Virus record (IMG/VR): IMGVR_UViG_3300044620_002034
Coordinates: 1-32,564 of that record
Direction: 5' to 3' (one strand)
Length of the DNA stretch: 32,564 bases
From: a virus
The notes below the pieces were generated by a model. The model did no database searches. It saw nothing but the letters and a program-made list of their open reading frames with translations, and was not told where the DNA came from. The translations under genes and the position numbers were made by a program. This document shows, piece by piece, positions 474-28,744 of the stretch. Positions within the stretch are counted from its first letter, which is position 1; each line of letters opens with the position of its first letter.

Positions 474-482
474 CTAATATAA

Positions 483-1990: not shown

Positions 1991-2005
1991 TAATACATAA
2001 TTTTT

Positions 2006-2740
2006 ATGGGAATAAATGATATTTTATACAAATTGAATGAAATCAATTTCGATGATACAATTAAGGTATTTGTTCCATCTTTAAACCGTATAGCACCTTT
2101 CAAACCATTGTCATTACAACAACAAAAAGAAATTCTTAAGGCCGGTATATCATCAGAATTTTTTAATATACTAGAATTTAATGCAGCATTTAATCAAATT
2201 ATAGAACAAAATAGTTTAGAAAAAAACATTTATCGTTTAAGTGATAGATCTGTTATAGCTATAGCATTCAGAAATAAATTCACTGCACAACCTTTAGAAC
2301 TAGATGGTTCTAAAATTGATCTAAAACAATTTGAAAACAAACAAATAAATTTCGATGAAGATGCATTTGGCGAATTTCATCTTGAAGAAGGTCCATTAAA
2401 AATTACTTCACAATCACCATTACTTTCATTAGATCAAGCAATTACAAAAATACAGCTGACAAAAATTAAAAATACAGCTAATTTAGATCTTACTAATATT
2501 ATAGGGGAGATGTATGTATTTGAAATTTTAAAATACATTAAATCAGTGCAAATAAGAGATATAACACAAGATCTAAATCTATTATCGATAGAAGATAGAT
2601 TAAAAATTATAGAACAATTGCCGGCTTCGATTATAACAAAACTCAATAATCTTATTACAGAAAAATTTAAGAAGCCAGAAGACGATTATTTGACTATAAA
2701 CGATATCAAACTTACATTAGACGCAAGACTCTTTGTTTAA
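2006..2740 (+). CDS. Baseplate hub assembly protein, T4 gp26-like (copy 2)
   Basis: Second gp26-like protein directly after the first. Residues 21-46 (VFVPSLNRIAPFKPLSLQQQ and the following helix) match the family pattern 'F.PS..k...frPl...eek.il.a'. Later segments are helical and charged, with QLPASIITKL near residue 205, corresponding to MIPASVYTDI in the upstream protein. In T4 two genes lie here, 26 and 51, both required for hub assembly, so the pair may correspond to them functionally; that correspondence is inference. It is separated from copy 1 by 15 bases and from the tape-measure gene by 25 bases, which contain a late-promoter motif. Confidence 0.55.
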   Translation: MGINDILYKLNEINFDDTIKVFVPSLNRIAPFKPLSLQQQKEILKAGISSEFFNILEFNAAFNQIIEQNSLEKNIYRLSDRSVIAIAFRNKFTAQPLELDGSKIDLKQFENKQINFDEDAFGEFHLEEGPLKITSQSPLLSLDQAITKIQLTKIKNTANLDLTNIIGEMYVFEILKYIKSVQIRDITQDLNLLSIEDRLKIIEQLPASIITKLNNLITEKFKKPEDDYLTINDIKLTLDARLFV

Positions 2741-2750
2741 AGATCACGCC

Positions 2751-2758
2751 ATTAAATA
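2751..2758 (+). promoter_or_regulatory. T4-type late promoter motif for tape measure
   Basis: ATTAAATA, matching the TATAAATA late-promoter consensus in its last six bases (TAAATA at 2753-2758). It ends 7 bases before the ATG at 2766, the longest spacing in the set. It lies in the short gap after a hub gene. Confidence 0.55.
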
Positions 2759-2765
2759 ATTATTA

Positions 2766-4721: not shown

Positions 4722-4723
4722 TT

Positions 4724-6118
4724 ATGGCTGATACACCACCACCAATCACACAAAATCCCTTTTCTGGTAACGTTGGATTAGCTATAGGAGTAGACCCCGT
4801 CAAGACTATAGCGTCGCGCGTAAAAGAAGAAGCACTAGCTTCGCGTTCTGCTAATTCACCCACATCAAAACAAGTCAATAACACACAAACACCCAACGCT
4901 GATAATTTTCAAAAAAGCAGCATTTCAGAAGACTATAACATTTTAAAAGATTATATATGGAATTTATCAGAAAATAAAACCATTATTATTGATCATGTTC
5001 CGAAATTAATAGCTACAGAATATAATATTGAAACATCGCCATTAATACAAAATTTAAAGTCATCATTAACAATAGGATTAGAAGGTGTAAATCAAAGTGC
5101 TTCGATATTAAGATCGGCATCTAATACAGTTGTTCCTGGTATGTTGGATTCGCTTAAATCTATTTCAGCGCCAGAGTGGGCTAAGACATATGCAGAAAAT
5201 GCATCAAATTCTGATGTAATGAAAAATGCAAAAGATTACTTTAGTAATATTAAACAAAAATTAAGCGAAGCTACTAAGGCATCAATGACTAGTGAGATGC
5301 AATGGAATAGCTTGAAATTAAAGGAGCTTTATGATCATTTATATACGTTATCTAGGACCGGGAAAAAATTTATTTTTCCTTACTTAGATGATGAATTTTT
5401 ATCATTATCTAATAGATTTGATGAAGGAAATGAATATCTGCAATTTGATGCCGGTCTTTTTCAGATTGACACGAGTAATGCTAAAAGCAATTTAAAAAAG
5501 TTTTCACAATTACCTTCTTTATTATCGCCAGGCGCATATATTCAAATGCCTCAATTTTATAATTTTGATAGCGTAGGTGAACCAAGTGTTACTATATCCT
5601 TTCCTCTTTATAATACAAAAAATAGCTATGAAACACAAAAGAATTTAAAATTTGTTAAGCTATTTGGATTAAACAATATGCCTTATAGAAAGGATCTTAT
5701 TGCTGTCGACCCCACAAGAATTTATGACATAGTTATACCCGGCAAAGTAAATTTACCGTTTTGTTATGTTTCGGACTATATCGTTAATCATTTAGGTACA
5801 AAAAGTTTATATGGTGAAGAAATATATCCAGAAGCTTATAGTGTAAAAATCACATTTACTTCTTTGATTAAATTTGACGCAAATATGTATATAGATGCTA
5901 TGAACATGGCAAGAGTATATATACCACCGCCGGGTAGACAAGTAATTAAAGTAGAAACGCCAACTCAACAATCTGCACCTGCAAATACTTCAAAATCACA
6001 ACCCCAAAAAATGCGGGAATCATATGACCCCGTAAAAAATGGTGGTGGTACAACGGATGATCCGAATATGCGACAATTTAATCGAAGTGTAAACAATGGG
6101 GGATCTACGATAGGTTAG
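4724..6118 (+). CDS. 48: Baseplate tail-tube cap, T4 gp48-like
   Basis: Tube-cap protein joining hub and tail tube. The C-terminal half carries the gp48 pattern: KKFIFPYLDDEF (about residue 217), LLSPGAYIQMPQFYNF, then VTISFPLYNT (T4 gp48 has 'P.I.KPK.F.w......FPLLNT'). Near the end EIYPEAYSVKITFTSLIK corresponds to the conserved tube-fold strands. The protein has 464 residues against about 364 in T4. The excess is an N-terminal Pro/Ser-rich region and helical segment (residues 1-170) and a low-complexity tail (PGRQVIKVETPTQQSAPANT, then Gly/Asn-rich). It ends in TAG one base before the gp53 gene, so the two are probably cotranslated. Confidence 0.75.
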   Translation: MADTPPPITQNPFSGNVGLAIGVDPVKTIASRVKEEALASRSANSPTSKQVNNTQTPNADNFQKSSISEDYNILKDYIWNLSENKTIIIDHVPKLIATEYNIETSPLIQNLKSSLTIGLEGVNQSASILRSASNTVVPGMLDSLKSISAPEWAKTYAENASNSDVMKNAKDYFSNIKQKLSEATKASMTSEMQWNSLKLKELYDHLYTLSRTGKKFIFPYLDDEFLSLSNRFDEGNEYLQFDAGLFQIDTSNAKSNLKKFSQLPSLLSPGAYIQMPQFYNFDSVGEPSVTISFPLYNTKNSYETQKNLKFVKLFGLNNMPYRKDLIAVDPTRIYDIVIPGKVNLPFCYVSDYIVNHLGTKSLYGEEIYPEAYSVKITFTSLIKFDANMYIDAMNMARVYIPPPGRQVIKVETPTQQSAPANTSKSQPQKMRESYDPVKNGGGTTDDPNMRQFNRSVNNGGSTIG

Positions 6119-6119
6119 T

Positions 6120-6470
6120 ATGGAACAAATAAAATTATCACATCCAGACGAATATTACGAGAACATTTTCAATATGTATAAAGATACAAATGAAAATGGT
6201 GATATGTATTATTTTTATAATATTGGAAAAAAAATTACTTTACCAGATAATATTGATGATGGTGTATTTGATTATTTTAATGTTCCAGACACACTACCAT
6301 TGACATCCATTAGCTATCAGGTTTACGGTACTATACATTTGTGGTGGTTAATATTATTATGTAATAATATACAAAATTCTCTTAAATTATTAACACCGGG
6401 TTCTGTGATTAAAGTTATTAAAAAAGAATATTTAAATACAATTTTAAAATCATTAAAAAATAGAGAATAA
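6120..6470 (+). CDS. 53: Baseplate wedge protein, T4 gp53-like
   Basis: Small baseplate wedge subunit; in T4 gp53 helps complete wedges and join them around the hub. The pattern is characteristic: a Tyr-rich strand (MYYFYNIGKKITLP), then DYFNVPDTLPLTSISYQVYG, then TIHLWWLILLCNNIQN with paired tryptophans, then a LysM-like end (LLTPGSVIKVIKKEYLNTIL). It is shorter than T4 gp53 (116 versus about 196 residues) but carries the whole recognisable core. It sits between gp48 and the hub gene, three bases before the next ATG. Confidence 0.75.
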   Translation: MEQIKLSHPDEYYENIFNMYKDTNENGDMYYFYNIGKKITLPDNIDDGVFDYFNVPDTLPLTSISYQVYGTIHLWWLILLCNNIQNSLKLLTPGSVIKVIKKEYLNTILKSLKNRE

Positions 6471-6473
6471 TAT

Positions 6474-8000
6474 ATGGCTATATCAGACTATATTACTAGT
6501 AATCAAGATAAATTTGCTTATCAATATAATGGAAATGATTATTTGATGTGTGCAACATTTGTCGCACTTGATGATTCTGGTAAAGCTGTCATGATGAAAG
6601 GTAACGCATTTAGATATATTGAAATTATTGATAATATACATCATCCATTTCATACAGCAGAGATTATTGTTAAAAATGATTTGAATTTTTTTGATAAAGA
6701 ATATACATACTTAGGCAATGGTAGAGATATGGTTATATTGACAATATTGCCGGATTCAAAATATAATGCAGTCGCCCCTTTAACAAATGATGATTTTGTT
6801 TTGAAATTTGAATTTATTATTACAGATTGTGTTGATATAAATTATGAAAATTCAATTTGTAAAAGACTAAAATTAGTTGAAGCAAAAGAATATAAATTAT
6901 CAGAAACATTTTTTAACATTGTAGGTGTACAAAAATCCTTGGGCGGTTTTTCTTATCTTAATACAAATGAAGGTAATGCAAAACCAACAGGGCTTTGGAT
7001 AAAATCAATTTTGAAAGATGTATGCTCTGAAATGGGTGATGATCTTTTTATAAAGGATGCTGACGGCAAAGAATTTTTCGAACAAGATGGCTCTATTAAT
7101 ATAGATATTACACCTCACGGCGCTATACCAAACATATCTGTATTGAATTATATAATGCAATTTCATATTCATAATGAAAGTCCATGCATATTAAGATATG
7201 ATAGAATACAAAAGAAATTTTATCTAATATCTTATAAAACATTATTCGAAAATAATGAAGTATTTTGTAAAAATGAACTTCAATTTGGTCGTATTGCAAC
7301 TCATGAAGAGTTAGATCAAATACAATCAAATGTCGTTTATGACCACTTTTCGAAAATATGGTCTGATTTGGTTTTATTAGGGCAAGGCGGAAACGATTCA
7401 AAAATTATTGAATCGTATATAGAACAACCTGACGCATCTTTAATATTGAAATTTTTTGCAAAAGAAAGTGTCACATCTTATTCACGATCACATGGTGCTT
7501 TTATGTATAATGCACAAACTTTAACACCCGATTTTATCATTCAAAAATATAAAAAATGTTTCGTTGATCCTTTTAAAACATTATTTAAAAATTATGATTT
7601 AAAAGAAAATTTTACACTACCTCAAAATACGGGTCATATGACAAATGCTTGGAAAACGGTTACAGATTCATTACCACCAGAAATGAATGAAAAACAATTT
7701 GAAATTAAAAAATTGAATAATCTTTTAAATCTAAATAATACATATATTTACAAATGTAGAGGATCAACATCTAGAAAAGCCGCAACATTTATAGATGTAG
7801 TAAAATTTGATAAAAATTTAGATAATGATAAAAATTATGATTTAAATCATTTAGGCAGACATTTAATAACTTGTGTAAAACACATTTTTATTGAAAATAA
7901 TTATTTCAATAAAATTGAAACAATAAAACCATATAAATTATTGGATGCAAAACCAAACAAACCGATTGAAACAATAACTAATTTATTAAAAAAATCATGA
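6474..8000 (+). CDS. 27: Baseplate central hub protein, T4 gp27-like
   Basis: Probable hub protein forming the trimeric torus at the centre of the baseplate. Visible family features are an N-terminal beta-barrel half with FRYIEIIDNIHHPFHTAEII, the segment KLSETFFNIVGVQKSLGGFS, a middle region with repeated aromatic strands, and a C-terminal part KCRGSTSRKAATFIDVVKFD followed by NHLGRHLITCVKHIFIENNY. The last element is typical of hub proteins ('G...R......ID........LG...V..V.H.F.....Y'). It has 508 residues; T4 gp27 has 391. Its stop overlaps the start of the transglycosylase-containing gene by four bases (ATGA), echoing the gp27-gp5 partnership in T4. Confidence 0.7.
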   Translation: MAISDYITSNQDKFAYQYNGNDYLMCATFVALDDSGKAVMMKGNAFRYIEIIDNIHHPFHTAEIIVKNDLNFFDKEYTYLGNGRDMVILTILPDSKYNAVAPLTNDDFVLKFEFIITDCVDINYENSICKRLKLVEAKEYKLSETFFNIVGVQKSLGGFSYLNTNEGNAKPTGLWIKSILKDVCSEMGDDLFIKDADGKEFFEQDGSINIDITPHGAIPNISVLNYIMQFHIHNESPCILRYDRIQKKFYLISYKTLFENNEVFCKNELQFGRIATHEELDQIQSNVVYDHFSKIWSDLVLLGQGGNDSKIIESYIEQPDASLILKFFAKESVTSYSRSHGAFMYNAQTLTPDFIIQKYKKCFVDPFKTLFKNYDLKENFTLPQNTGHMTNAWKTVTDSLPPEMNEKQFEIKKLNNLLNLNNTYIYKCRGSTSRKAATFIDVVKFDKNLDNDKNYDLNHLGRHLITCVKHIFIENNYFNKIETIKPYKLLDAKPNKPIETITNLLKKS

Positions 8001-9592
8001 TAGTAAAAACAGGATTTCCAGAATATATTGAAGCTATTACTATAGGTGATAGTCCTGATTTTTTGAGAGACAATACAGATCTTTGTGAGTTGCTTGTAGA
8101 TTTTCCGATTGAAATAAATTTATCATATCTTTGGAAAAAAATTGCAACAGATCCTGATACGATGGGTGCTTCTAGGGAATTCATGAAAAATTTTTTATTA
8201 GATGCACCTTCATTAACAACAGAGCATTTGATTTTTTATAGAAATAAAATAAATCAATTACCCACAGATGTAAAAGATACACTTAAGAAAGAGGTTGAAA
8301 ATACATTTAATAAAATTGGTAATAGACCATCAAACCCAACCAATGAGAGAAAATTTAATCGTGCTCAATCGTTAGATAACGATAAAGACTTTTTGCAAAA
8401 AATATCAGATCTCATGAGACAATGCGAGTCCGCATGCAATTATTTCAAAAATTTATCCCATAGAGTTGGTTCACTATATGATTATAGTGCTGTGAATACT
8501 ATACACAATTCTGCGCCGCAAGATACAGACATAAATTCACCACCGCCAACTGGATTATCTTTAGAAAAATTTAATAAATTGCCGTCTGCTTTAGTTAATG
8601 CAACATCAGAAGCATATACTAGTATGAAAGCTTTTATGGATAAAGCACGTTCTAGTATGCATAATTTTGTATCTAATTATAATTTAGAAAAATTAGGAAA
8701 AAAAGCGGTCGGGGCTGATGAAAAAGGTGCCATATACATAGGTGCAACCAGCCCTTCTATATTTCAGAGCACAATGGAAGCATATTCAAACGGCGTTGCA
8801 AATAATAGAATGATGCTCGGGGATTGTTTTAGAATTGTTGATTACATGTCTAGATATAATCCATTTAATCCAGACATGAATATCGCAAAGCCTATTGATA
8901 AAGATATAGGTATAAAAATATTAGAAGCAAATAATGGTGAATATAGAGAAAAAATAGTAAAAGTAAAAGTAAATGGAAATACCGCTAATTTTTATAATGG
9001 TCGTAATTTCGAAATGAGAGAAGGTCCTAGTAGTACTGTGAAATTGAATGATGAATCTAAACGTACCAAAACAAAAGGTGTTTATACAAAAGCAGATTTA
9101 TCAAAATCTGATTTAGAGAATAAAGCAAGAATATCTGCTGCTCTAGACAGATACCTTGATAATTCATTATTAGTGAATAATTTTAATCAATTGCCTGATG
9201 ACGTTAAAGCCCAAGCAGCAATATACGGTGTCGAAAGTGGTACTAAAGAGGAATGGAAAACCTTCTTCTTAAGAATGGCATATGCAGAATCATCATATAA
9301 TCCGCAGACGAAATCTCTTGAAACGAGTGGTGAATATTCTGTGGGCATATTTCAGCTTAGTGAAAATAATGGTACTAGTTATGGTGATACAAAAAGAAAA
9401 TTTACTGAATCTGAATTAAAAGACATTGATTTTAATACAAAAATAGGTGTGAGAGTATGGGAACGGCAATTATTTAATAATAAACCATTTGTAAATAATT
9501 CGGGACAAGGCGTAAGTTATTATAATGCAACAACAATGGATAAAATCATAGGTGCAAAAAATATTGGCGCGATTGAGGTTGATAAGAAGTAG
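7997..9592 (+). CDS. Tail-associated protein with C-terminal lytic transglycosylase (SLT) domain
   Basis: Likely the peptidoglycan-cutting component of the baseplate hub, functionally replacing T4 gp5. The C-terminal ~125 residues match soluble lytic transglycosylases: FFLRMAYAESSYNPQ with the catalytic glutamate at residue 431, then GEYSVGIFQLSENNG (the family 'G..GlfQi' element), then a helix NTKIGVRVWERQLF and GQGVSYYNAT. The N-terminal ~400 residues are not recognised; they are helical, with a proline-rich joint (DINSPPPTGLS) and a beta segment around 300-350. I do not see the OB-fold or triplex beta-helix of T4 gp5. It is coupled to the gp27-like gene by an ATGA overlap. Catalytic activity is inferred from motif and position. 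Confidence 0.75.
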   Translation: MIVKTGFPEYIEAITIGDSPDFLRDNTDLCELLVDFPIEINLSYLWKKIATDPDTMGASREFMKNFLLDAPSLTTEHLIFYRNKINQLPTDVKDTLKKEVENTFNKIGNRPSNPTNERKFNRAQSLDNDKDFLQKISDLMRQCESACNYFKNLSHRVGSLYDYSAVNTIHNSAPQDTDINSPPPTGLSLEKFNKLPSALVNATSEAYTSMKAFMDKARSSMHNFVSNYNLEKLGKKAVGADEKGAIYIGATSPSIFQSTMEAYSNGVANNRMMLGDCFRIVDYMSRYNPFNPDMNIAKPIDKDIGIKILEANNGEYREKIVKVKVNGNTANFYNGRNFEMREGPSSTVKLNDESKRTKTKGVYTKADLSKSDLENKARISAALDRYLDNSLLVNNFNQLPDDVKAQAAIYGVESGTKEEWKTFFLRMAYAESSYNPQTKSLETSGEYSVGIFQLSENNGTSYGDTKRKFTESELKDIDFNTKIGVRVWERQLFNNKPFVNNSGQGVSYYNATTMDKIIGAKNIGAIEVDKK

Positions 9593-9612
9593 TATCTTTA
9601 GTCCTCGGTAGT

Positions 9613-10074
9613 TCATTCATTAGTCAGCTCATGTACATTTTCAATTACAGTAGCATTAATTAATTGTTTCATTAATTCTTCTCTGGTAGATCTTAGTTTT
9701 AACCCAACAACAGCATCTAATTCTTTTTGCCTGCTTTTATTGTCCATCTCTTTTATCTTAATAGCAGTGCTGGTTTTCTTATCTGTGATGAGAATGCGAT
9801 TCAAACTTTCTACAGCAGATGATGTAGCTTTAATTAATTCTGCCAATGCCGTTACTTCTTCAGCATTGGGTGCAGCTTCTACGTAGTCTCTGACTAATGT
9901 AACAGATTCAGAAGCCTGTTTAACTAAATTGCCAGTATGTTTTAAAATGAATTCCTCGAGATTTTCTTTTGTTAGGGTATCTTCTACTTGTTCGACTTCT
10001 TTCGTCGCTTTAGGAATAGATTTTAGTTGATTTATGAGCGAATCTACAGAGTCTAATGAATCATCTTCTGGCAT
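9613..10074 (-). CDS. Probable small terminase subunit, T4 gp16-like
   Basis: 153-residue, mostly helical acidic protein. The pattern resembles T4/cyanophage gp16: an acidic N-terminus, LTKENLEEFILKHTGNLVKQ, then a helix with VRDYVEAAPNAEEVTALAEL, ATSSAVESLNRILI, a basic coiled coil KEMDNKSRQKEL, and a C-terminal STREELMKQLINATVIE. gp16 recognises DNA and stimulates the large terminase during packaging. It lies on the opposite strand to its neighbours, converging on the transglycosylase gene with a 20-base gap and diverging from dUTPase. A late-promoter motif sits 6 bases upstream of its ATG, fitting a packaging gene. The gp17 partner is not in the window. Identification rests on helix pattern and remembered motif order, not on a search. 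Confidence 0.55.
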   Translation of the reverse strand: MPEDDSLDSVDSLINQLKSIPKATKEVEQVEDTLTKENLEEFILKHTGNLVKQASESVTLVRDYVEAAPNAEEVTALAELIKATSSAVESLNRILITDKKTSTAIKIKEMDNKSRQKELDAVVGLKLRSTREELMKQLINATVIENVHELTNE

Positions 10075-10080
10075 AAAAAT

Positions 10081-10088
10081 TATTTATT
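10081..10088 (-). promoter_or_regulatory. T4-type late promoter motif for gp16-like gene
   Basis: Read on the minus strand this is AATAAATA, ending 6 bases before the ATG of the gene starting at 10074. It overlaps the -35 element of the divergent dUTPase promoter by two bases (10087-10088). Confidence 0.6.
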
Positions 10089-10121
10089 GATAATTTACTA
10101 AGCATCACCTATAATTTATAT
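10087..10121 (+). promoter_or_regulatory. Sigma70-type promoter for dUTPase, leaderless geometry
   Basis: TTGATA (10087-10092, 5/6 to consensus) and TATAAT (10110-10115, 6/6) are separated by exactly 17 bases. The start codon ATG at 10122 begins 7 bases downstream of the last base of the -10 box, where transcription would be expected to begin. The dUTPase mRNA should therefore have essentially no 5' leader. This is the best host-type promoter I found in the window and fits early expression of a nucleotide-metabolism and replication pair. Confidence 0.75.
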
Positions 10122-10556
10122 ATGATTAAATTCTTAAAGACACATCCAGATGCTGTATTACCAAAGAAAAACAATCCTGATCCTTCTATTGGAGATAGTG
10201 GATATGATATGACTGCAGTAGAAGAAACAATTATTCCAGCAAGAGGATCTGCTGTCGTTCCTGTAGGACTAACATTAGCATATCTATCACCAGAATTTTG
10301 GGTTCGAATTGAAAGCAGATCTGGACTAGCATTTAAACATAATATTACTGCATTTAATGGTATTATTGATAATCCATATCGCGGTGATTTGGGTGTGAAA
10401 TTATTCAATCATTCTGATGTTGACTATGTTGTAAAGAAGGGTGATCGCTGTGCACAGTTAGTTATCTATCCATTAGTACATATGACTGCAGACTGGTCTG
10501 ATTCAGTATCAGAAACAAGTCGCGGTGCTAAGGGATTTGGTTCTTCTGGAAAATAA
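10122..10556 (+). CDS. dut: dUTPase (deoxyuridine 5'-triphosphate nucleotidohydrolase)
   Basis: Hydrolyses dUTP to dUMP and pyrophosphate, keeping uracil out of phage DNA and feeding thymidylate synthesis. All five trimeric-dUTPase motifs are present in order: motif 1 DSGYDMTA (25-32), motif 2 RSGLA (66-70), motif 3 GIIDNPYRGDLGV (80-92) with the catalytic Asp and Tyr, motif 4 GDRCAQLVI (107-115), and motif 5 RGAKGFGSSG (134-143). The length of 144 is normal for the family, so the enzyme looks complete and active. It is read from a near-consensus sigma70 promoter and is followed after 5 bases by the clamp-loader gene, suggesting an early two-gene operon set among late genes. Confidence 0.97.
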   Translation: MIKFLKTHPDAVLPKKNNPDPSIGDSGYDMTAVEETIIPARGSAVVPVGLTLAYLSPEFWVRIESRSGLAFKHNITAFNGIIDNPYRGDLGVKLFNHSDVDYVVKKGDRCAQLVIYPLVHMTADWSDSVSETSRGAKGFGSSGK

Positions 10557-10561
10557 TTATT

Positions 10562-11479
10562 ATGAATTTTGATAATATTTGGGTAGAGAAGTATCGACCC
10601 AAGACATTAGATGATATTGTTCTTCCAGTTGATACAAGGAAGGTCATTGAATCATATAAAGCAAAGAAGGAGATCTCAAATCTCCTTCTTATTTCATCTC
10701 CAGGTCAAGGAAAGACTACATTAGCTAAGATGATTGTGAATCATATCTTAGAATGTGATTATCTTTATGTAAATGCCTCTGATGAAAATGGCATTGATAC
10801 TATCAGAACAAAAGTAATTTCATTTGCACAAACCAGATCATTGACTGGTGATATTAAAGTAGTTATATTAGATGAAGCAGATGGCATCTCAGCTGAAGGT
10901 CAAAGAGCTTTGCGCAATGTAATGGAAGAATATGCTGCAAATACACGCTTTATTTTAACAGCAAATTATAAACACAAGATCATTCCCGCAGTTCAATCAC
11001 GTTGTGTTAGCTTGAATTTTAATCATAATATTCAAGATGTTATTAAGCATTGCTTTGGCATCCTTAAAAAAGAAAGTATTGCTGTACCAGAAGAGCAAAA
11101 GCCTTTGTTTATCGAATTGGTAAAGCACAATTTTCCTGATTTTAGAAAGATCATTAATGAATTACAAAAAAATTCTACGTCAGGTACTCTATCAATTGTT
11201 AATCAGGCAACACAAAATGAATTTGTTAAAGAAGTTTTTGATAAGATCAAGGAAAATCCGTTTGAATGCAGAAAGTTTTACATTCAAAATGAAAGCACCT
11301 TTCAGTCTGATTACCACAACCTAATGAAAAATATGGTTCAGTATGTTTACTCTTGGCAGAATGAACCAAAGAAAGCAGAAACCATCTTAGTAATTACAGA
11401 ATACATGTATAGACATGCATTTGTTGTTGATCAAGAGATCAATTTCTTTGCATTAATATTGCAAATAGCAAAATTATAA
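10562..11479 (+). CDS. 44: Sliding clamp loader ATPase subunit, T4 gp44-like
   Basis: AAA+ ATPase that loads the replicative clamp onto primer-template DNA. Motifs run in RFC/gp44 order: WVEKYRPKTLDDIVLP at residues 7-22, Walker A SSPGQGKTT (45-53), Walker B VVILDEAD (100-107), sensor 1 region FILTANYKHKI (130-140), and the SRC arginine-finger motif QSRC (145-148). The length of 305 is close to T4 gp44 (319). The small subunit gp62 and the clamp gp45 are not in this window. The 3' end overlaps the convergent minus-strand gene by 6 bases. It shares the dUTPase promoter, with a 5-base gap between the two genes. Confidence 0.95.
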   Translation: MNFDNIWVEKYRPKTLDDIVLPVDTRKVIESYKAKKEISNLLLISSPGQGKTTLAKMIVNHILECDYLYVNASDENGIDTIRTKVISFAQTRSLTGDIKVVILDEADGISAEGQRALRNVMEEYAANTRFILTANYKHKIIPAVQSRCVSLNFNHNIQDVIKHCFGILKKESIAVPEEQKPLFIELVKHNFPDFRKIINELQKNSTSGTLSIVNQATQNEFVKEVFDKIKENPFECRKFYIQNESTFQSDYHNLMKNMVQYVYSWQNEPKKAETILVITEYMYRHAFVVDQEINFFALILQIAKL

Positions 11480-12034
11480 TTCTTGAAAGCTCTTAAGATA
11501 CCTGGCAGTAGTTGGTTGCTGTGCAGGTATCTTAATATTTTGAGTAGGTAATTTATGTTCGATGCTTGTAAGTTTACCTTCTCCCTTGTCTGATTTAAAA
11601 GATTCTGTTTCTTTAACAGAATATTCAAGTGGTTTGATTTGTGTGCCATTCGGCCTTACCAAAGAAGAGTCAAAAGCAGGATAATTAATTCCATCTGTTT
11701 CCATTTGTTCAACACAACAAGCAGGAATCTTTGTATAATGCGTATATCTTCCGCCACCATTATCCAAAGCAATATCTAAAGTAACATCACCTGTCATAGT
11801 ATCAGGATTTCCCGGATATCTTGGTGAGTTATTATCTACAATACCAACTACACGAAGATGCAATTTGGATGATTCCATCTCGTCAAGCAATTGTTTGATA
11901 TTAGTTCCGAGCATTTTGTAAGCTTCGTTGGTTTTAAAATTTTTAGCAAATTTAACATAGTCACCAACTAAAAATCCACCACGGGAATATCGGGTCAAGG
12001 CTGCTTCAAAAATAGCATGAAACTTCTTCTTCAT
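11474..12034 (-). CDS. Unrecognised conserved-looking protein, probable late gene
   Basis: 186-residue protein that I cannot name. The N-terminus MKKKFHAIFEAALTRYSRGG is followed by FLVGDYVKFAKNF, then LHLRVVGIVDN and GDVTLDIALDNGGGRYTHYT, ending in a Lys/Pro/Gln-rich linker (NIKIPAQQPTTARYL). I recall a similar 'RGGFLVGD.VKF...LRVV.I' architecture in proteins of unknown function from marine T4-like phages; that is memory, not a search. It is transcribed opposite to its neighbours. A late-promoter motif with exact 5-base spacing precedes the ATG, which predicts late expression and hence a virion or assembly role. It converges with the clamp-loader gene, with stop codons overlapping by 6 bases. 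Confidence 0.75.
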   Translation of the reverse strand: MKKKFHAIFEAALTRYSRGGFLVGDYVKFAKNFKTNEAYKMLGTNIKQLLDEMESSKLHLRVVGIVDNNSPRYPGNPDTMTGDVTLDIALDNGGGRYTHYTKIPACCVEQMETDGINYPAFDSSLVRPNGTQIKPLEYSVKETESFKSDKGEGKLTSIEHKLPTQNIKIPAQQPTTARYLKSFQEL

Positions 12035-12039
12035 GCTAT

Positions 12040-12047
12040 TATTTACT
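12040..12047 (-). promoter_or_regulatory. T4-type late promoter motif, minus strand
   Basis: Read on the minus strand this is AGTAAATA, ending 5 bases (ATAGC) before the ATG of the gene starting at 12034. It forms a back-to-back pair with the plus-strand motif at 12053-12060, only 5 bases away. Confidence 0.65.
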
Positions 12048-12052
12048 TAATT

Positions 12053-12060
12053 GTTAAATA
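12053..12060 (+). promoter_or_regulatory. T4-type late promoter motif for gp25
   Basis: GTTAAATA followed by TTTTT and then ATG at 12066, a 5-base spacing. The motif supports ATG 12066 as the start: the in-frame TTG at 12051 lies upstream of and overlapping the motif. Confidence 0.65.
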
Positions 12061-12065
12061 TTTTT

Positions 12066-12542
12066 ATGGCGTCAATTAAAATAAGTGGATTACCTGAACC
12101 ACGGGTTCAAAACAAGACATTTACTTATTCTGATTTGCGTTTGGATTTACAAAAAAAATACCTCATTAAAGATAACTTAAGACAAATCCCTGAAATAAAT
12201 GATCTGATGTTGGATTACGATTTAAACGCCATTAAAAATTCTATAAGAAATATTTTTAATACTGTACCGGGCGAGAAAATCTTAAATCCGACATTCGGAT
12301 TAAATCTTAAACAATTTTTATTTGATCCATTAAGTGATTTAAGAGCCATGGATATAGCTGGTCTCATTAGATCAAAATTAACTTTTTTTGAACCACGAAT
12401 TTCACTGATTAATGTCAATGTATATCCAATGTATGACACATCAGAATACAACATAGAAATTATCTTTTCAATACCAGGATTAAATGCACCACCATTCTCT
12501 ATGGCCGGTGCATTAAATAGTATTGGTTATACAAACTACTAA
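12066..12542 (+). CDS. 25: Baseplate wedge protein, T4 gp25 / phage W family
   Basis: Conserved sheath-initiating wedge component of contractile tails. The core pattern is NSIRNIFNTVPGEKILNPTF followed by GLNLKQFLFDPL, then helix LRAMDIAGLIRSKL, FFEPRISLINVNVYP, and a C-terminal strand YNIEIIFSIPG. This is the classic 'G.r...P.fG..l..lLFep......I...I..Ai...EPRi.l..v.v' arrangement. I start at ATG 12066 (MASIK...); the longer frame from TTG 12051 would include the promoter motif. The N-terminal ~55 residues form the usual extension. It is followed by gp6 after 2 bases; in T4 these two proteins also interact in the wedge. Confidence 0.9.
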   Translation: MASIKISGLPEPRVQNKTFTYSDLRLDLQKKYLIKDNLRQIPEINDLMLDYDLNAIKNSIRNIFNTVPGEKILNPTFGLNLKQFLFDPLSDLRAMDIAGLIRSKLTFFEPRISLINVNVYPMYDTSEYNIEIIFSIPGLNAPPFSMAGALNSIGYTNY

Positions 12543-12544
12543 TT

Positions 12545-14365
12545 ATGGCGATATCAAATTTTACAGAATTTAATTTACCTAGAAATGCTTATGCTGCATT
12601 CGATGCTGTCAGCATGAAGCAATTAATTATAAATCGATTAAAGGCTTCTGAAAAATTTCAAGATATTGATTTTGAAGGTAGTAATATCTCAGCGTTAGTA
12701 GACATGGTCGCTTACATGTATCATGTATTAATGTTTTATCTTAATCAAACATCTTCTGAATCAACATTTTCACAATCAGAATTGTTTGAAAATATAAACA
12801 AAATTGTTTCTTTGATAGGATATAAACCCCACGGATACCATACATCATCTGTTACAATCAGTGAATTTAATGTAAGTGAACAAATACCCGCGGGTCCTTA
12901 TTTAATACCCAGATTTACTTCAATAAATGTAGACGGATCAACTTATGTATTCACAGAAGATATTTTCTTTGAAAAAATTTCAAATGGTTCAGAGAACATA
13001 GAATCTGTGATAAACAATAGTGTTTTATATCAAGGTGACGTGAAAGAATACCCAACCTCATTGGCTTTGGGAGAAGCATTCGAATTAAAAGTCATTGCGA
13101 TACAAGATTTAATTAATAATACAACCATTATTGATAATAATAATATATTCGTTTTCGTCAGAGATGTATATACTGAAAAATGGGTTGAATGGAAAGAGGT
13201 TGATACATTATATGATCAAGAACCTACCTCTAGAGTGTTTGAAAAGAGATTTAACGAAAATTTAAATTACGAATTGAAATTTGGAAATAATATAAATGGG
13301 AAACAATTAAATCTAGGTGATCAAGTTGCTATCTATTATTTACAGAGTAGAGGATCAGCAGGTAAAATAGGATCTAATCTTTTAACTGGTAGATCTCTGA
13401 CACTCTATAACACCAATAGATGGAGTGAAATTTATCAAGATATTAAATTTTCATCATCTCAAGAAATAAATGCAAATCAAATTTCATATATTACACTAAA
13501 CAATCAAAATGCATCTACTGATTTTAAACCATTTGAGACAACAGATCAAATTAAAAAGAATGCACCATTAATGTTCATGTCTCAAAATCGATGTGTTACT
13601 GTAGGTGATTTTGAATCCAAAATATCAGCTAAATTTTCGAATATAATAGAAGATACAAAGGTAGTTAACAATCAAAGTTATACTAAAGAATTTTTAAAAT
13701 ATTTTTATGACATAGGTTTAGAAAGGCCTAATCAAGAAGAGAGAGTATTGATGAATCAAGTATTATTTTCTGATAGTTGCGATTTCAATAATGTGTATTG
13801 TTTTGTTGTACCTAAATTCGGTGCTATCCTAAATGAAGAAACACCACAAACATTACCCATTTCTCAAAAACAATCTATTGTTGAATCATTTGCAAATACA
13901 AAATTAATTAATCAGAATGTAGTAGTATGCGATCCCATATATAATGCATTTGATATTGGATTACCCTTTCCAGAAGAAACAGACTCAGAAACAGTAAGAA
14001 GTGAAACATACCTGAGGATATATCGCGAAACTGGATACAACACATCTAAAGAATTAATAAAAAGTAGTGTCTTATCTAAGATAGAGCAATTTTTTAATTT
14101 ATCAAATAATAAATTAGGTGGTATTTTAAATTTTGCACAACTATCACAAGATATTTTAAATATTCCTGGTATAGCAAAAATAGAAACATTTAGAAATAAT
14201 CCCGGTAATGAATTTTCAGTTTCTAGAATCAATGTTATAACATGGAATCCGCTTTATCCAGATTCTACATTAGAATCAACATCACAAAATTATGCATTGA
14301 AATATTTTCAATTTCCATTCTTTTATCAAATAAGCAATTTAATTAATAAAATTGAAGTCATTTAA
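12545..14365 (+). CDS. 6: Baseplate wedge protein, T4 gp6 / baseplate J-like
   Basis: Major wedge component forming the ring of the baseplate. The N-terminus matches gp6: IINRLKASEKFQDIDFEGSN, then ISALVDMVAYMYHVLMFYLN (T4: 'DYDFEGSRLNVLCDLLAYNT'). The middle has IPAGPYLIPRFTSINVDG and the J-type turn LKFGNNINGKQLNLGDQV. Further on, RCVTVGDFESKISAKFSNII corresponds to T4 'QQRCVTATDYDTFVSERFG'. The C-terminal domain has RIYRETGYNTSKELIKSSVL and a terminal strand region. The 606 residues compare with 660 in T4. The stop and next start share a base (TAATG at 14363-14367). Confidence 0.88.
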   Translation: MAISNFTEFNLPRNAYAAFDAVSMKQLIINRLKASEKFQDIDFEGSNISALVDMVAYMYHVLMFYLNQTSSESTFSQSELFENINKIVSLIGYKPHGYHTSSVTISEFNVSEQIPAGPYLIPRFTSINVDGSTYVFTEDIFFEKISNGSENIESVINNSVLYQGDVKEYPTSLALGEAFELKVIAIQDLINNTTIIDNNNIFVFVRDVYTEKWVEWKEVDTLYDQEPTSRVFEKRFNENLNYELKFGNNINGKQLNLGDQVAIYYLQSRGSAGKIGSNLLTGRSLTLYNTNRWSEIYQDIKFSSSQEINANQISYITLNNQNASTDFKPFETTDQIKKNAPLMFMSQNRCVTVGDFESKISAKFSNIIEDTKVVNNQSYTKEFLKYFYDIGLERPNQEERVLMNQVLFSDSCDFNNVYCFVVPKFGAILNEETPQTLPISQKQSIVESFANTKLINQNVVVCDPIYNAFDIGLPFPEETDSETVRSETYLRIYRETGYNTSKELIKSSVLSKIEQFFNLSNNKLGGILNFAQLSQDILNIPGIAKIETFRNNPGNEFSVSRINVITWNPLYPDSTLESTSQNYALKYFQFPFFYQISNLINKIEVI

Positions 14366-17300
14366 TGAATACCTCTGACTACAGATTTTTATATTTTGAT
14401 GTATTGGACTATACCAATAGTCATACTACATCCGGGTATACGTTACCAATTACACCATTTACTTTTATACCAAAATTTGATTCGGGTGATGATAAAAGTG
14501 TATCAAACACAAGAATTTTATGGGATTTTGGTGATGGAACTACAAGCAGAGATATTACAGCTAGTCACTATTATAAAATACCCGGTACATATAGTGTAAA
14601 GTGTTATTTTTATGGTGCTAGTGGGATTGGTTATGAGTCATCTTTTTGTCAAAATATTCTGGTAAAGGATTATATATCTGATACTCTTGTATTATCAGCT
14701 AAAAATAATGCAATAATAAGAGCTTCGCATTACGAAAATCCATTTATTTTAACTAGATTCAATAGTTGGCAAACATATAACACACTTTCAAGCCAAGGTG
14801 CATGCATTACATTACATGTATCTGGTAATTCAGCTCCTCTATTAGATATTGATAGTTATCAAAATGATAAGTATGCACATTTAAAATCAAGTTCTAGATT
14901 TGTTGTTATAGAATTTAACGAATTATTATCTTCATATGACGCAATACCAGTAAATGAAATTTTTACAAAAAACAATAATGAAATTTATGTAAAATTAGAT
15001 TCGAATAAAAATATTGTCTTTTGTAATTCATCTGATTCTGGATCAGTGATAGCAGGTACTTCTGGCCAAAGAACAATTTATTATACTGATGATTATTCAA
15101 AACCACCACAAGGCAGTGTTATCCCGCAAACATTAATAACTGCATCATTTAATTTCAAAAATTTTTATGATACTGATAGTGTAAAATATAACATTAATAG
15201 CGATTATACTGTTTTAAATAGTTTGTATTCAGTGTCATATGCACCTAGGATATATCCACAGGATAAATTAGGCTGTGTAAAGTTCTCAACTAATGGTATC
15301 GATTCAGAAGGAAATTTTAATACATCAACATTTAATATAGGTAAAAATAAATTTGTTGGACAAAAAATTCCTTTCATTGCAAAATTAAAAGATGAAGATA
15401 ATTTCTCTTCAAAGTCGTGGCCAAAATTTACTTTAAAGAAAGAAGATGAACGTTTATCACAAAATTCAATCAAATTTTATTTAAAAGACACAAATACTAA
15501 TACGATTATACCCTCGGCTTTTGATATATATGAAGATTATGATGAATTTAACACATATGACAAATTAGGATTTTTTAAAGGATATATAATTCCTAAAATA
15601 CCAATAAAAAATGCTACTATTTGTTGTGATTTTGCTACAACTAGTGAATCATTTTATATTGCAAATACGGAACATGTAATTGTTACTAATCCACAATCTA
15701 CTTATCTATTTAAATTTGACTTAGCATACAATATAATTGATAATTTACTTATTGAGGAAAATGTAACTAAAACATTATTTGATACTTCTAGCTTATCTGG
15801 AATGTATGCTTCTATAATTGTACCACGATATGAATCTAATAGTATAGAATATAATTATTGGGCAATTGATTCTGATCAAGACTTAGTGGCAAAAATTGAT
15901 ATTGAAAACAATATCGTAACAACAATAAATTTATCATCAGGTTCATCACCTAGTTTTTTAGCAGCTGATGGTAACGGTGATATCTGGGTGACACTATATG
16001 ATAGTGTTAGTGTTTGCAAATTAAGTAGCAATGGTGATATTTTATTTTTTACTGCTCCTGACTTAATAAATCAGGACTATAGCAGTAATACATTTTACAC
16101 ATCACAAAGTGGTGCAGCTGGTTCCAATTCTATACTACCTGCTATAGTAGATATAGACACAAATAACAATGCTTGGGTCGCTTATAATTATACATTATCG
16201 TCATTTATTTGTGTATATGATACCAATGGAAATCTTAAAACTAGAATCAATATTGATTATCCCTTTATAGCAAATGGTATTATTTGCACTAGCAAAGAGA
16301 TTTCATGGGTTCTATTAAAGAATTTAAACAATATTGGATTTGATTCACTATTAAAAATAAATCAAACAAATTATCAAAAATCTATATACAACTTTGATTA
16401 TAAGTTATGGGATTTTACTAATGATATTGAAGGTAATCTTTGGTTTACAGCGAATACAAACCAAATAGTAAAATTTGATACTACTTTTAGTGAAATTACA
16501 TTATTCACAACCTTAACATCTGTTTCCGGTCAATCAATAGATTGTAATTTTAACGGTATAGCTACTACAACACAAAGAGATTTGTTAGTATTTGATAATA
16601 TAGATCGTGAAATTAAAGTTTTGGAGATTGATGATATTACAGGTAGCCCTGAAACCAATTTAAAGCGAATTAAGCTAGATGGAGTATCTACAACTGGATT
16701 TTATCAAAATTTTATAAATTCGAAGGGCGATGCAACAGGGTTTAGATATTCAGAAAAATATTTGAATGGTCCTGTATTTTTTACAAAAATTGGGTGTTGT
16801 AGCAATCAGTTTGATATATATCCAACTGCTGGCGAATATGATATCGCAAAATTAAATGAAAATTTTGATATGCATGCACAATTGAAAAATTTTGCATTCC
16901 AAGAAACATTGAGAGACAGCACAACTCTTATTGATGATTTCTTTAAGAGTATATTAGGAACAACTGACGAAGATCCAAAGCAACTTGGCAAAAAAATATA
17001 TGAAAAAATAGCAAATTTTGTTGATAACAATGTGTTTATAGATACATGCAATGTAGAAAAATTAAATGCATTACACAAAATGCTAAATGAAAATCTTTAT
17101 ATATTCAATACATATAATTTTCCTTCAAATATAACCCGTCTATTAGATTTGTTTTCTATAAAATTATCAAAATTAAAGGGATTTAGAAATCAATTTAATG
17201 AAAATTTTGATACTAAAGGATATAGCAATGATAATGATATATACGGAAAAAATTTAGGCGATGAATTAAATTTTCTGACCACAACATTGACAGCAGGAAT

Positions 17301-17670: not shown

Positions 17671-17675
17671 AGTGC

Positions 17676-17683
17676 TCTAAATA
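17676..17683 (+). promoter_or_regulatory. T4-type late promoter motif, GTG gene at 17689
   Basis: TCTAAATA, then TTTTT, then GTG at 17689, a 5-base spacing. It supports the GTG as the true start because no in-frame ATG lies near it. Confidence 0.65.
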
Positions 17684-17688
17684 TTTTT

Positions 17689-21085: not shown

Positions 21086-21093
21086 CATAAATA
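21086..21093 (+). promoter_or_regulatory. T4-type late promoter motif for gene at 21099
   Basis: CATAAATA, matching the T4 consensus TATAAATA at 7 of 8 positions. It ends 5 bases (GAAAT) before ATG 21099 and is the closest match to T4 in the set. Confidence 0.7.
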
Positions 21094-21534: not shown

Positions 21535-21542
21535 ATTAAATA
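21535..21542 (+). promoter_or_regulatory. T4-type late promoter motif, GTG gene at 21548
   Basis: ATTAAATA, then CTTGT, then GTG at 21548, a 5-base spacing. It fixes the GTG start of the following gene. Confidence 0.65.
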
Positions 21543-23731: not shown

Positions 23732-25153
23732 ATGACATTACCTTATACATCAAAGTTTTATTCAAATGGTGCTATTTTCGATTCCTTCGGTTCATTAGAT
23801 AAAACCTATTTGTCATATTATGTTGAAGGAGATATACTATATTATTTGTATGAAAACAATGAATGTTATGGTATTGATTTGAGAACAGAAGAAATTTCAT
23901 CTATAGAAATTTTAGCACCAACTGAAATTTTAGAAGGTGATATAGTTGCATCATTATCATGCAGTACTATAGTAGCAAAAAATGGGTCAGTATATGGATT
24001 TGATGGATATCACGCCAAACTCTTCCGGGATGAATATGTGCTTTATAAGAAAGGAAATTCAGAATTGTGGAGAGAGAGCTTAAATCACTCTACTAAGGAT
24101 TTACTTTTATCATCCACTTCTCAGATTAGAGATTTTATTATTGATGATGATGATAATTTTTACGTTATACATACAAATGCAAAAATTTCCAAATTCAATA
24201 AGTATAGGGAAAATATATTCACATTATCAAATACACAATCTGCTCTTAGCTCAGCTATAGAAAATGCCGAATTTATAAAATTAGATTTGATTAGAGAGTA
24301 TGATGAAAATGGGCTGTCTTTTTATCCAGTCTTATTGGGAAATAATGCCGATGGCAGGCATTTCTTAGCTAAAATAAATGAAGCTAATTTATCTTTTGAA
24401 AACGTAACATTAATCGATACACATGGCACATATCAAAAAGAAGGTGCACCCAGAAGAATAAATTATAATCTTTCGAATTATGATTATTTAAAACATCGCT
24501 TCAAACAAAAAAATATAATCAATTTCAAAACACGTCTTAAAAATATATACAATAATAAAAATATATTAGATTTAGAAATACCTGTTGATATTAGTCAATT
24601 TAAAAACGGAGAACATCATTTCGTATTCAGACTTAACACAAAACACGGAAAGATTGATTTATTTGTAGACGGTACACTGTCTTCAAGTATAAATTTTCCT
24701 AAAGCTGATTTTACATTCCAGGATATCACACAAGATTCATTTGTGGTAGGTACAACATACTTTTATAATAATATAACATTACCACAACATTTAAAACAAA
24801 CTAAGCATTATATGCTTAATAATTGCTCTATTAAAAATTTTAAATTATATGATAAAGCAATTTCAAATGATGAAATTAAATTTTTATTAATTAAATCACA
24901 AGGCGATTCAGATTTAATTACATCATTGCCCACAGGGCATCGTAATGAAATAGAGCAAGTAGAACGCATATTCACAGTTAATACGCCAGGCAACAAAAGT
25001 AATAAAGTAAATATTGTCATTAAAAATAGCAACATCAATAATTCTGCAATCAAAGAAAATGTAAAAAATATTATTCTTGAAAAGATTAATAAAATTTTAC
25101 CTGTTGGTGTTACTGTAAATGATGTAGTGTTCAAAAACACAGACATTAAATAA
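23732..25153 (+). CDS. Structural protein: propeller-like N-terminus, LamG-like domain, small C-terminal domain
   Basis: 473-residue virion-type protein in three visible parts. Residues 1-220 are propeller-like strand repeats (TYLSYYVEGDILYYLYENNE, DFIIDDDDNFYVIHTNAKIS). Residues about 265-390 look like a concanavalin/LamG jelly-roll: RLKNIYNNKNILDLEI, NGEHHFVFRLNTKHGKIDLF followed by VDGTLSSS, then NCSIKNFKLYDKAISNDEIK, the usual closing 'i.n..iYnraLs..Ei' element. Residues 395-473 are a small alpha/beta domain ending NIILEKINKILPVGVTVNDV, which resembles terminal docking domains of baseplate proteins. No promoter motif precedes it; it should be cotranscribed with the upstream gene (3-base gap). 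LamG-like domains in phage often bind surface glycans; that role is inference. Confidence 0.72.
   Translation: MTLPYTSKFYSNGAIFDSFGSLDKTYLSYYVEGDILYYLYENNECYGIDLRTEEISSIEILAPTEILEGDIVASLSCSTIVAKNGSVYGFDGYHAKLFRDEYVLYKKGNSELWRESLNHSTKDLLLSSTSQIRDFIIDDDDNFYVIHTNAKISKFNKYRENIFTLSNTQSALSSAIENAEFIKLDLIREYDENGLSFYPVLLGNNADGRHFLAKINEANLSFENVTLIDTHGTYQKEGAPRRINYNLSNYDYLKHRFKQKNIINFKTRLKNIYNNKNILDLEIPVDISQFKNGEHHFVFRLNTKHGKIDLFVDGTLSSSINFPKADFTFQDITQDSFVVGTTYFYNNITLPQHLKQTKHYMLNNCSIKNFKLYDKAISNDEIKFLLIKSQGDSDLITSLPTGHRNEIEQVERIFTVNTPGNKSNKVNIVIKNSNINNSAIKENVKNIILEKINKILPVGVTVNDVVFKNTDIK
25145..25152 (+). promoter_or_regulatory. T4-type late promoter motif for gene at 25159
   Basis: ATTAAATA overlapping the stop codon of the upstream gene, ending 6 bases before ATG 25159. 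Confidence 0.55.
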
Positions 25154-25158
25154 AATTA

Positions 25159-27042
25159 ATGGATCTTTATCAGATAAAATACGGATATACGGAGGGCGAT
25201 GATTTATTTCTCGATAGAAGAAATTACAAAGGATTTTATAACGTATACAATGATGGATCCGTATATACTGGTCAATATAGGGATGCTAATTCAAAATTAT
25301 TAGAATCTAATGATAATTATTCAGGTGATTTAATAACATCAAATTTCTTTAGTGATAGAACATTATTGAATGAATATAAATTACCACACGGTAAAAATGA
25401 TGTTAGATTCGACACTAATGAATTGGTGAATTGTGCTACTATTAATACCAAATTAAATTATATACAAGAAAATTTAATTTACATTTACTCTCGATTATTT
25501 TTCGGCAGTACAGATGTGCCATATCAATATAAAAAAGTTGCTGCTATAGAAAAAAATAGCACTATTTTTACGTGGCATACTGCCAGAAATGGTACAGATT
25601 CTGTACCATTCAGCTTCTCATATCAACCATTTTTATCTACTAATACATTATCAGGATTTGCAGAAATGGATAAACTTAAAAAGTTTATTGTTCTGCCGCA
25701 AAACAAAACAAATAATACATCTATATTAGCAATCACTGACACCCATTTAATTGGTTTAACGTCGAATCAGACATTTACTAATATAGATATTGTACTATAT
25801 GAAAATGTTATTGATAATAATTCTTTTGAAAGGTGTCAAAATTTAGAAGACCTTACTTTTGATGGAAAATATCTGTTTGTAACAGATTCACAAATCAATA
25901 GCGGCGGTCAAGTTTTTAAATATGACATACTTTCATATTTTACGGGTGATCGTGCTTATGAATATAAGAGATTTTTAATTAAGCCCATTGGCGGGCTTGG
26001 TCAATCAAAAAATAAAAATAAATTTAATGGTTGTGATATAATTGGATCCAAACCAGGCTTTGTTTTTGTAAATGATTCTAAGAACAAAGTGATAAAGGTA
26101 TATGATTCTAATTTTGTATACAAGAAAACATTGAAATACAAAATAAATTATATCGTAAAAGATATTAAATGGAGGCAGTTAAATGACTCTGTTTATGTGT
26201 TATTCAATATTGGTGATCAACGACATTTATTAAGAGAGTATAAAAACGATTTCACATACATAGATTATATTTTTGAGGATTCATTATATAAAGAAACTGA
26301 CTTTGAATTTAAGAGAGTGTGTTTTTCAGAAACAGATTCGAATGTATTTTATCTTGTAACTAATACAAATGTTTATAAGAAATTCTTTTCAAATCCAGAA
26401 AAAACATTTGCAACTTTTACTAGATCAAAATATGGGCAAGATCCAAATTTTGCATGGAAATTTCAAACAACCAAATGGAGTCAACAAAAAATAAAATGGT
26501 CGTTCGGTGCTGAAAAGAAACGATTTAATTTATCTGATATAGATATATTAAATCTCGAAGATGGAAGAGACACTCTTTTCGTATTGGCAGAAAGTCAAAT
26601 TTTGCAATTTAAAGAAAAAACACTTTATAATACTGTATTAAAAAACACAAAAATACCATATTTTAAAACTAAAGATGTTTTATTGACAATATCAGAAAAT
26701 GTTCAAGCTTTGGTCTTTAATAAAGAATTATTTAAAATTTATTCAAATATTATTAAATTAAAGAATAATTTAAAAGGTAGATTTTATTACAAGTATGACA
26801 AATATGGTGATCTGAATTATAACAATTACATATCGTTATTAGATGAGGAAATACATCGTCTAAATGTTGAAATTAATTTTGATACTAGAATCAATGATAA
26901 TGAATTAGTTGTACCACAAGTATTGAATAGAATATTTGAAAAAATTATTGATTTAGAAAATGCATTATTCGAAATGACAGAACCATATATACCTAATTTT
27001 AGGAATTTACCTACGATAGACAATGTTGTATACATTGACTAA
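25159..27042 (+). CDS. Beta-propeller structural protein
   Basis: 627-residue protein, probably a virion component. The N-terminal ~120 residues start DLYQIKYGYTEGDDLFLDRR and contain a helix CATINTKLNYIQENLIYIYS, a possible attachment domain. From about residue 150 to 520 there are repeated WD/NHL-like strand sets: NLEDLTFDGKYLFVTDSQIN, GSKPGFVFVNDSKNKVIKVY, DIKWRQLNDSVYVLFNIGD, RVCFSETDSNVFYLVTNTNV. The last ~100 residues are helical (LVVPQVLNRIFEKIIDLENA). It is the last of five large, apparently beta-rich proteins in this run. I see no catalytic motif, so a binding or structural role is more likely than an enzymatic one. Confidence 0.72.
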   Translation: MDLYQIKYGYTEGDDLFLDRRNYKGFYNVYNDGSVYTGQYRDANSKLLESNDNYSGDLITSNFFSDRTLLNEYKLPHGKNDVRFDTNELVNCATINTKLNYIQENLIYIYSRLFFGSTDVPYQYKKVAAIEKNSTIFTWHTARNGTDSVPFSFSYQPFLSTNTLSGFAEMDKLKKFIVLPQNKTNNTSILAITDTHLIGLTSNQTFTNIDIVLYENVIDNNSFERCQNLEDLTFDGKYLFVTDSQINSGGQVFKYDILSYFTGDRAYEYKRFLIKPIGGLGQSKNKNKFNGCDIIGSKPGFVFVNDSKNKVIKVYDSNFVYKKTLKYKINYIVKDIKWRQLNDSVYVLFNIGDQRHLLREYKNDFTYIDYIFEDSLYKETDFEFKRVCFSETDSNVFYLVTNTNVYKKFFSNPEKTFATFTRSKYGQDPNFAWKFQTTKWSQQKIKWSFGAEKKRFNLSDIDILNLEDGRDTLFVLAESQILQFKEKTLYNTVLKNTKIPYFKTKDVLLTISENVQALVFNKELFKIYSNIIKLKNNLKGRFYYKYDKYGDLNYNNYISLLDEEIHRLNVEINFDTRINDNELVVPQVLNRIFEKIIDLENALFEMTEPYIPNFRNLPTIDNVVYID

Positions 27043-27045
27043 ATA
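27038..27045 (+). promoter_or_regulatory. T4-type late promoter motif for gene at 27051
   Basis: GACTAAATA region: the 8-mer ACTAAATA ends 5 bases (GTATC) before ATG 27051 and overlaps the stop codon of the upstream gene. Confidence 0.65.
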
Positions 27046-28736: not shown

Positions 28737-28744
28737 CCTAAATA
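28737..28744 (+). promoter_or_regulatory. T4-type late promoter motif for gene at 28750
   Basis: CCTAAATA, then ATAAT, then ATG at 28750, a 5-base spacing, within the 18-base gap between the two fibre genes. Confidence 0.65.

Follow-up and report, generated by a model that had tools for sequence, protein, structure and literature searches.

Two divergent promoters packed into a 47-bp gap of a T4-like phage, and evidence for largely leaderless messages in its lineage

Introduction

A dUTPase gene and a gene resembling T4 gene 16 are read in opposite directions from an intergenic gap of only 47 bp (10075-10121), which raises the questions of what so short a space can hold and whether its arrangement serves the change from early to late expression. 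An earlier note on this DNA described an early and a late promoter physically overlapping in the gap, and proposed both an early-to-late switch by competition of the two polymerase forms and leaderless starts as a general trait of the phage. The window, that is the whole stretch of 32,564 nucleotides, is a 32.6-kb virus record without a close isolate, and no near DNA match to its positions 1-25000 was found among phage isolates. Genes of all records were called with one simple open-frame caller, which takes the first ATG, GTG or TTG of each frame.

Layout of the gap and its flanking genes

Direct reading of the gap shows both promoter classes, overlapping as the earlier note described them. 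The plus strand reads TTGATA-17-TATAAT-TTATAT-ATG into the dUTPase gene, with the two hexamers at a spacing within the 16-18 nt of a sigma70 promoter, and the minus strand reads AATAAATA-ATTTTT-ATG, with the A of the gp16-like start codon at 10074 (Table 1). The late 8-mer AATAAATA and the −35 box share the two bases that had been claimed, the hexamers TAAATA and TTGATA abut, and the promoter pair is thus a confirmed observation.

Table 1. Coordinates of genes and promoter boxes in the window
Feature	Coordinates	Strand	Remarks
gp16-like gene (possible small terminase)	9613..10074	−	predicted leader 0-1 nt; weak profile match to T4-type gp16
Late promoter box TAAATA (8-mer AATAAATA, 10081-10088)	10081..10086	−	6 nt from gp16-like ATG; 23/24 readable relatives
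−35 box TTGATA of dUTPase promoter	10087..10092	+	TTG conserved there in 21/24 readable relatives
−10 box TATAAT of dUTPase promoter	10110..10115	+	6 nt upstream of dUTPase ATG (10122)
dUTPase	10122..10556	+	PF00692 E 2e-25; phrog_135 E 5e-38; ATG is first possible start of open frame
gp44-like clamp loader	10562..11479	+	phrog_168 E 3e-83; 5 nt after dUTPase stop; no Shine-Dalgarno
Late box	2753..2758	+	7 nt before start at 2766
Late box	12040..12045	−	5 nt before start at 12034
Late box	17678..17683	+	5 nt before GTG start at 17689
Late box	21088..21093	+	5 nt before start at 21099
Late box	21537..21542	+	5 nt before GTG start at 21548
Late box	25147..25152	+	6 nt before start at 25159
Late box	27040..27045	+	5 nt before start at 27051
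Late box	28739..28744	+	5 nt before start at 28750

The clamp loader is probably translated by coupling to dUTPase. Within its gene, a scan found a 12-bp hairpin AAGAAGGAGAT..ATCTCCTTCTT at 10664-10690 that is terminator-like on both strands. The label of the gene on the other side of the gap is a tentative one: comparison of its protein with a profile of five T4-type gp16 proteins gave an E of 0.001 but a probability of only 21%, no Pfam match and no relevant PHROG match were found for it, and in the relative G001 the gp16-like gene is not adjacent to gp17.

Conservation of the promoter pair

Two scans of viral contigs yielded 21 and 30 loci. Among the 30 loci carrying the gp16-like gene the gap is readable in 24 (five have no open frame in range and one has no start); these 24 include many near copies of each other, while identity of the gp16-like protein falls to 36%. 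In 23 of them the gp16-like start is preceded by a TAAATA whose end lies 5-8 nt away, and in the other, L033, the word TAAGTA is seen by eye at the place of the late box. A two-box early promoter, with a −10 box ending 4-8 nt before the start and a TTG −35 element at 15-19 nt, is found in 21; of the three misses two, L039 and L040, arise because the script chose an ATG inside the −10 box, and when the following in-frame ATG is taken instead the pattern is seen by eye to return. It is this conservation, and not the sigma70 match itself, that makes the pair convincing. In 11 of the 24 gaps no base separates the late hexamer from the −35 box, and in L033 a single one does, whereas in the other 12 the two are further apart and the gap measures 48-73 bp. 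The box positions therefore point to an old promoter pair and to a local overlap, confined to close relatives. A separate peculiarity is seen in L026 around 6001, where the gap is joined to the dUTPase interior at a common TATTGATAAT, either by a short-repeat deletion or as an assembly chimera.

Promoter boxes before start codons across the lineage

Box positions were counted genome-wide in three long relatives, G001 (98.6 kb), G002 (77 kb) and G003 (197 kb, clamp loader 53% identical), of which G001 and G002 have genes and promoters in common and are not independent. TAAATA ends 5-6 nt before 24 of the 106 genes of G001, 15 of the 84 of G002 and 41 of the 233 of G003, against about 0.6 or less expected in each, and before 8 of the 29 starts of the window (expected 0.12, P 1e-12); over the four records P ranges from 1e-12 to 3e-61. 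Across the window as a whole the word is depleted (47 occurrences against 112 expected). A T4-type late promoter has the core TATAAATA or NNTAAATA; TAAATA is the top-ranked word at 5-6 nt in the three long relatives and, at exactly 5 nt, ranks first of all 6-mers by distance in each of them, and the full TATAAATA is absent from the window. At least one TAAATA at 4-8 nt was found in 22 of 23 shorter, distant loci, the one with none being L020.

For the early class, −10 boxes with five of six matches lie 5-8 nt before 21 of 106 genes in G001, 18 of 84 in G002 and 46 of 233 in G003 (expected 5.9, 5.5 and 10.3), though loose matches are also raised at 0-4 nt in G001 and G003, so that this loose set is not clean. 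Exact TATAAT at the same distance precedes 4, 3 and 25 genes, respectively. A TTG stands at a spacer of 16-18 nt from 10 of 21, 9 of 17 and 18 of 43 of the −10 boxes (expected 1.0, 0.7 and 2.1), and because of this partner the boxes of G001-G003 are taken as promoters. The check that the earlier note had asked for, a −10 box just before other early genes, thus comes out in favour of its proposal in the three long relatives, but not in the window alone.

Stretches of 38-58 genes each from seven T4-related isolates (T4, Mosig, ACG-2014d, XG4, phiM12, HTVC008M and RM378) served as controls. None of them has more than one gene with TAAATA at 4-8 nt, or more than two with TATAAT at 5-8 nt (two in HTVC008M, one in T4); in the T4 stretch TAAATA lies mostly 22-28 nt from the starts, with Shine-Dalgarno-like words at 4-8 nt. 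Within the lineage, boxes are frequent where a gene follows space or a divergent neighbour, for example before 11 of 16 genes at 26-60 nt in G001, and rare before genes that overlap or touch the previous gene (2 of 24, 1 of 19 and 7 of 55).

Predicted start sites and the rarity of Shine-Dalgarno sites

A sigma70 −10 box spans −12 to −7, and when the TATAAT of the gap is counted in this way +1 falls on the A of the dUTPase ATG, as the earlier note had predicted. PMC1524935 places the late box of T4 at −13 to −6, so that a late box at 5 nt would put the start codon at +1. The modal distances are 5 nt for late boxes and 6 to 7 nt for exact TATAAT, a difference which means that in both classes +1 would fall on the start codon or beside it. 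Early and late boxes alike thus stand where +1 would coincide with the start codon, the spacing that marks a leaderless gene; PMC3160421 likewise counts genes with a TA-type box some 12 nt ahead of the start as leaderless.

With a late box at 5 nt the purine at box+6 is that of the start codon itself. In G001 and G003 together a pyrimidine precedes the start codon in 44 of 45 such genes, against 92 of 184 genes without a box (P 1e-10), and in early genes with a box at 6 nt C or T precedes it in 18 of 23 (P 0.014), a preference that may in part be promoter consensus. For late boxes at 6 nt, the base at box+6, where +1 is predicted, is a purine in 14 of 20 cases and T in 6. The gp16-like gene, whose box is at 6 nt, has T at box+6, and its message may thus start at the A of the ATG.

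Shine-Dalgarno-like 4-mers between −14 and −5 were found in 0 of 30 genes of the window, 5 of 106 of G001, 4 of 84 of G002 and 11 of 233 of G003; a slightly wider search brought the totals to two genes in the window, 7 of 106 in G001 and 14 of 233 in G003. For the isolates the counts between −14 and −5 are 4 of 45 in RM378, 30 of 54 in Mosig and 11/58, 9/38, 14/45, 16/44 and 23/50 in the other five. Since RM378 is also low, rarity of these words alone is not unique to the lineage; the box positions are. Shine-Dalgarno-like words occur in 4 of 10 genes of L021, and the major capsid gene of G003 has a Shine-Dalgarno-like site and no late box in its 83-nt gap. Taken over early and late genes together, the box positions across the lineage strongly support the idea that leaderless starts are a general trait.

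Alternative explanations

Promoter-like words could arise by chance in DNA of 29% GC beside a divergent gene pair, and the sigma70 match taken alone is indeed no better than chance: positions 1-20000 of the window contain 140 sigma70-like sites against 140.9 expected in shuffles, with the dUTPase promoter among the five that have at least 11 of 12 matches, and in the window alone the number of −10-like boxes at 5-8 nt falls short of significance (4 of 29 against about 1.5 expected, P 0.07). The positions of the late boxes within the same window and the conservation of both promoters over the 24 readable relatives make a chance origin extremely improbable. A more substantial alternative is that the A/T-rich boxes are not promoters but translation signals of a host that makes no use of Shine-Dalgarno sites, in which case the transcripts would be longer. 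Such hosts exist (PMC3160421), and the scarcity of Shine-Dalgarno sites in the lineage would fit them. A translation signal would hardly demand the exact word TAAATA, top-ranked at its place in the three long relatives and otherwise depleted in the window, nor would it coincide with the late box of T4 in phages that encode gp55, bring a −35 TTG at 16-18 nt along with the −10 boxes, or be missing from most genes inside operons; this explanation is accordingly judged very unlikely, if less so than chance.

The proposal of a true switch accepts both promoters and gives their overlap a function: early polymerase, as long as it occupies the dUTPase promoter, would keep the late promoter blocked, and after its withdrawal dUTPase would be silenced by late polymerase. 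The two predicted start sites lie at a distance of 48 positions and the boxes touch, and polymerase footprints give reason to expect that the two polymerases should not fit at once, so that competition or mutual exclusion would follow from the geometry. Early/late divergent pairs also recur, making up 1 of 2 divergent pairs in the window, 2 of 11 in G001, 1 of 9 in G002 and 7 of 25 in G003, where the gaps are 24, 48, 48, 50, 50, 52 and 55. However, the box overlap is conserved in close relatives only, and late/late divergent pairs (2 in G001, 2 in G002 and 3 in G003, with gaps of 29-34 bp) are equally tight although no switch is at stake there; T4 itself passes from early to late expression through phage factors that act on the polymerase. 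Because the pair itself is conserved while the overlap is not, compact packing fits better than a selected switch, and competition as the main explanation has been set back to an unlikely one. A second divergent gap in which a late box abuts a −35-like box, containing TATTTATTGATT, is found at 44178/44229 of G001 (about 4178-4229 in L069), with a possible −10 (TAATAT) 11 nt from the start.

The preferred explanation, which on the sequence evidence we regard as probable, is that a T4-like phage from a lineage with largely leaderless messages has two divergent promoters in the gap. On the plus strand, host polymerase of the sigma70 type would start early transcription at or within 1-2 bases of the dUTPase ATG, and on the minus strand late polymerase with the phage sigma factor gp55 would start either at the gp16-like ATG or one base ahead of it. 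Neither message would have room for a Shine-Dalgarno site; ribosomes would start on the 5' end, and downstream genes of an operon would be translated through tight spacing, by coupling. Without leaders, a gap is the sum of its promoter parts, and the 47 bp can therefore be read as the minimum packing for two promoters, the early promoter taking up about 6 + 6 + 17 + 6 and the late one 6 + 6.

Phage factors and possible further promoter classes

The late sigma factor gp55 is encoded in G001 (33033-33533), G002 and G003, and the window is a fragment without gp55. RegA, whose targets in T4 are the starts of messages, is absent from all five lineage records searched, which are possibly fragments, and present in six of the seven isolates; the exception, RM378, lacks RegA yet is not leaderless by the box-position test. 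The MotA C-terminal domain was found only in T4 among seven records searched, and WhiB in none of five records. Phage-borne translation factors were considered as a cause and set aside, ribosomal protein S21 (PF01165) and IF3 (PF00707) not being found in G001-G003.

A third promoter-like class, AGGAAC-N5-TAnnnT, appears in G003, where 30 of 95 AGGAAC words have the second element at that offset, against 1-11 at the other 33 offsets. Ten of these 30 are followed by a called start at 22-26 nt, which for seven lies at exactly 23, the leaderless distance. The motif (L076-L085) stands mostly on the minus strand at 16-45 kb and also precedes a tmRNA and one tRNA. It is possibly a middle promoter with an element between −35 and −10. 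In G001, ACGAAACC stands a few bases before a −10-like box at 3191, 28428 and 48802 (L067-L069), before three genes that include gp32 (PF08804), and is perhaps the middle element of that branch. G003 further carries the tmRNA gene at 15777-16193 of L076 (Rfam RF00023, 132 bits; ARAGORN tag AANKVVDFVLPQAEPQFALAA), three tRNA genes in L077, and, at its ends (~1-6 kb and 188-196 kb), near-duplicate genes with the same divergent promoter pair, reflecting a duplication or a terminal repeat. A search for the host through the clamp loader found no relative in genome contigs (117 stretches matched the pattern and none was confirmed), and one through the G003 tmRNA tag gave no match.

Comparison with known systems

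The late boxes share with T4 late promoters (TATAAATA, gp55/gp33/gp45) the TAAATA core before structural genes and, in three relatives, a gp55 homologue. In the T4 stretch searched, however, the box is ~14-28 nt from the start with the Shine-Dalgarno site between, whereas in the lineage it stands at 5-6 nt, and the first two bases of the T4 8-mer are loose there. The early boxes likewise resemble the sigma70 early promoters of T4-like phages in their TTGA-type −35, their spacer of 16-17 nt and TATAAT, but the −10 box of the lineage lies 5-8 nt from the start codon. The system is thus one of T4-type late promoters and an ordinary sigma70 early promoter, and it is the arrangement that is new.

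Single leaderless messages are known from phages, and in some bacteria such messages form a minority class. The TA-led leaderless genes of bacteria, for example of Actinobacteria and Deinococcus-Thermus, have TANNNT ~12 nt before the start and no Shine-Dalgarno site (PMC3160421), as here; the difference is that here the genome is that of a T4-type phage and a phage-specific late promoter class has the same geometry. The lambda cI-type message, mentioned in the same paper, is likewise a phage message that starts at the start codon, but it concerns single genes, whereas dozens of genes of the early and late classes would be concerned here. A literature search in one open library found no paper titled on leaderless T4-like phages, and in the accessible part of PMC9004378 the word 'leaderless' occurs only in a reference title.

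Implications

The wider reading, towards which we lean with less confidence than for the gap itself, is that a widespread uncultured clade of T4-like phages has lost the 5' leaders of its early, middle-like and late messages along with RegA, a repressor that binds leaders, and the use of Shine-Dalgarno sites; one geometry would then set the position of the start codon, the position of the promoter and the size of divergent gaps. For annotation of the clade this would provide a simple rule, the promoter marking the start codon. A T4-like clade with early, late and a third class of leaderless messages would offer a natural test of how abundant virion protein is made without ribosome-binding sites, and would also probe the nature of the host ribosome and the loss of leader-acting regulation such as RegA alongside the leaders.
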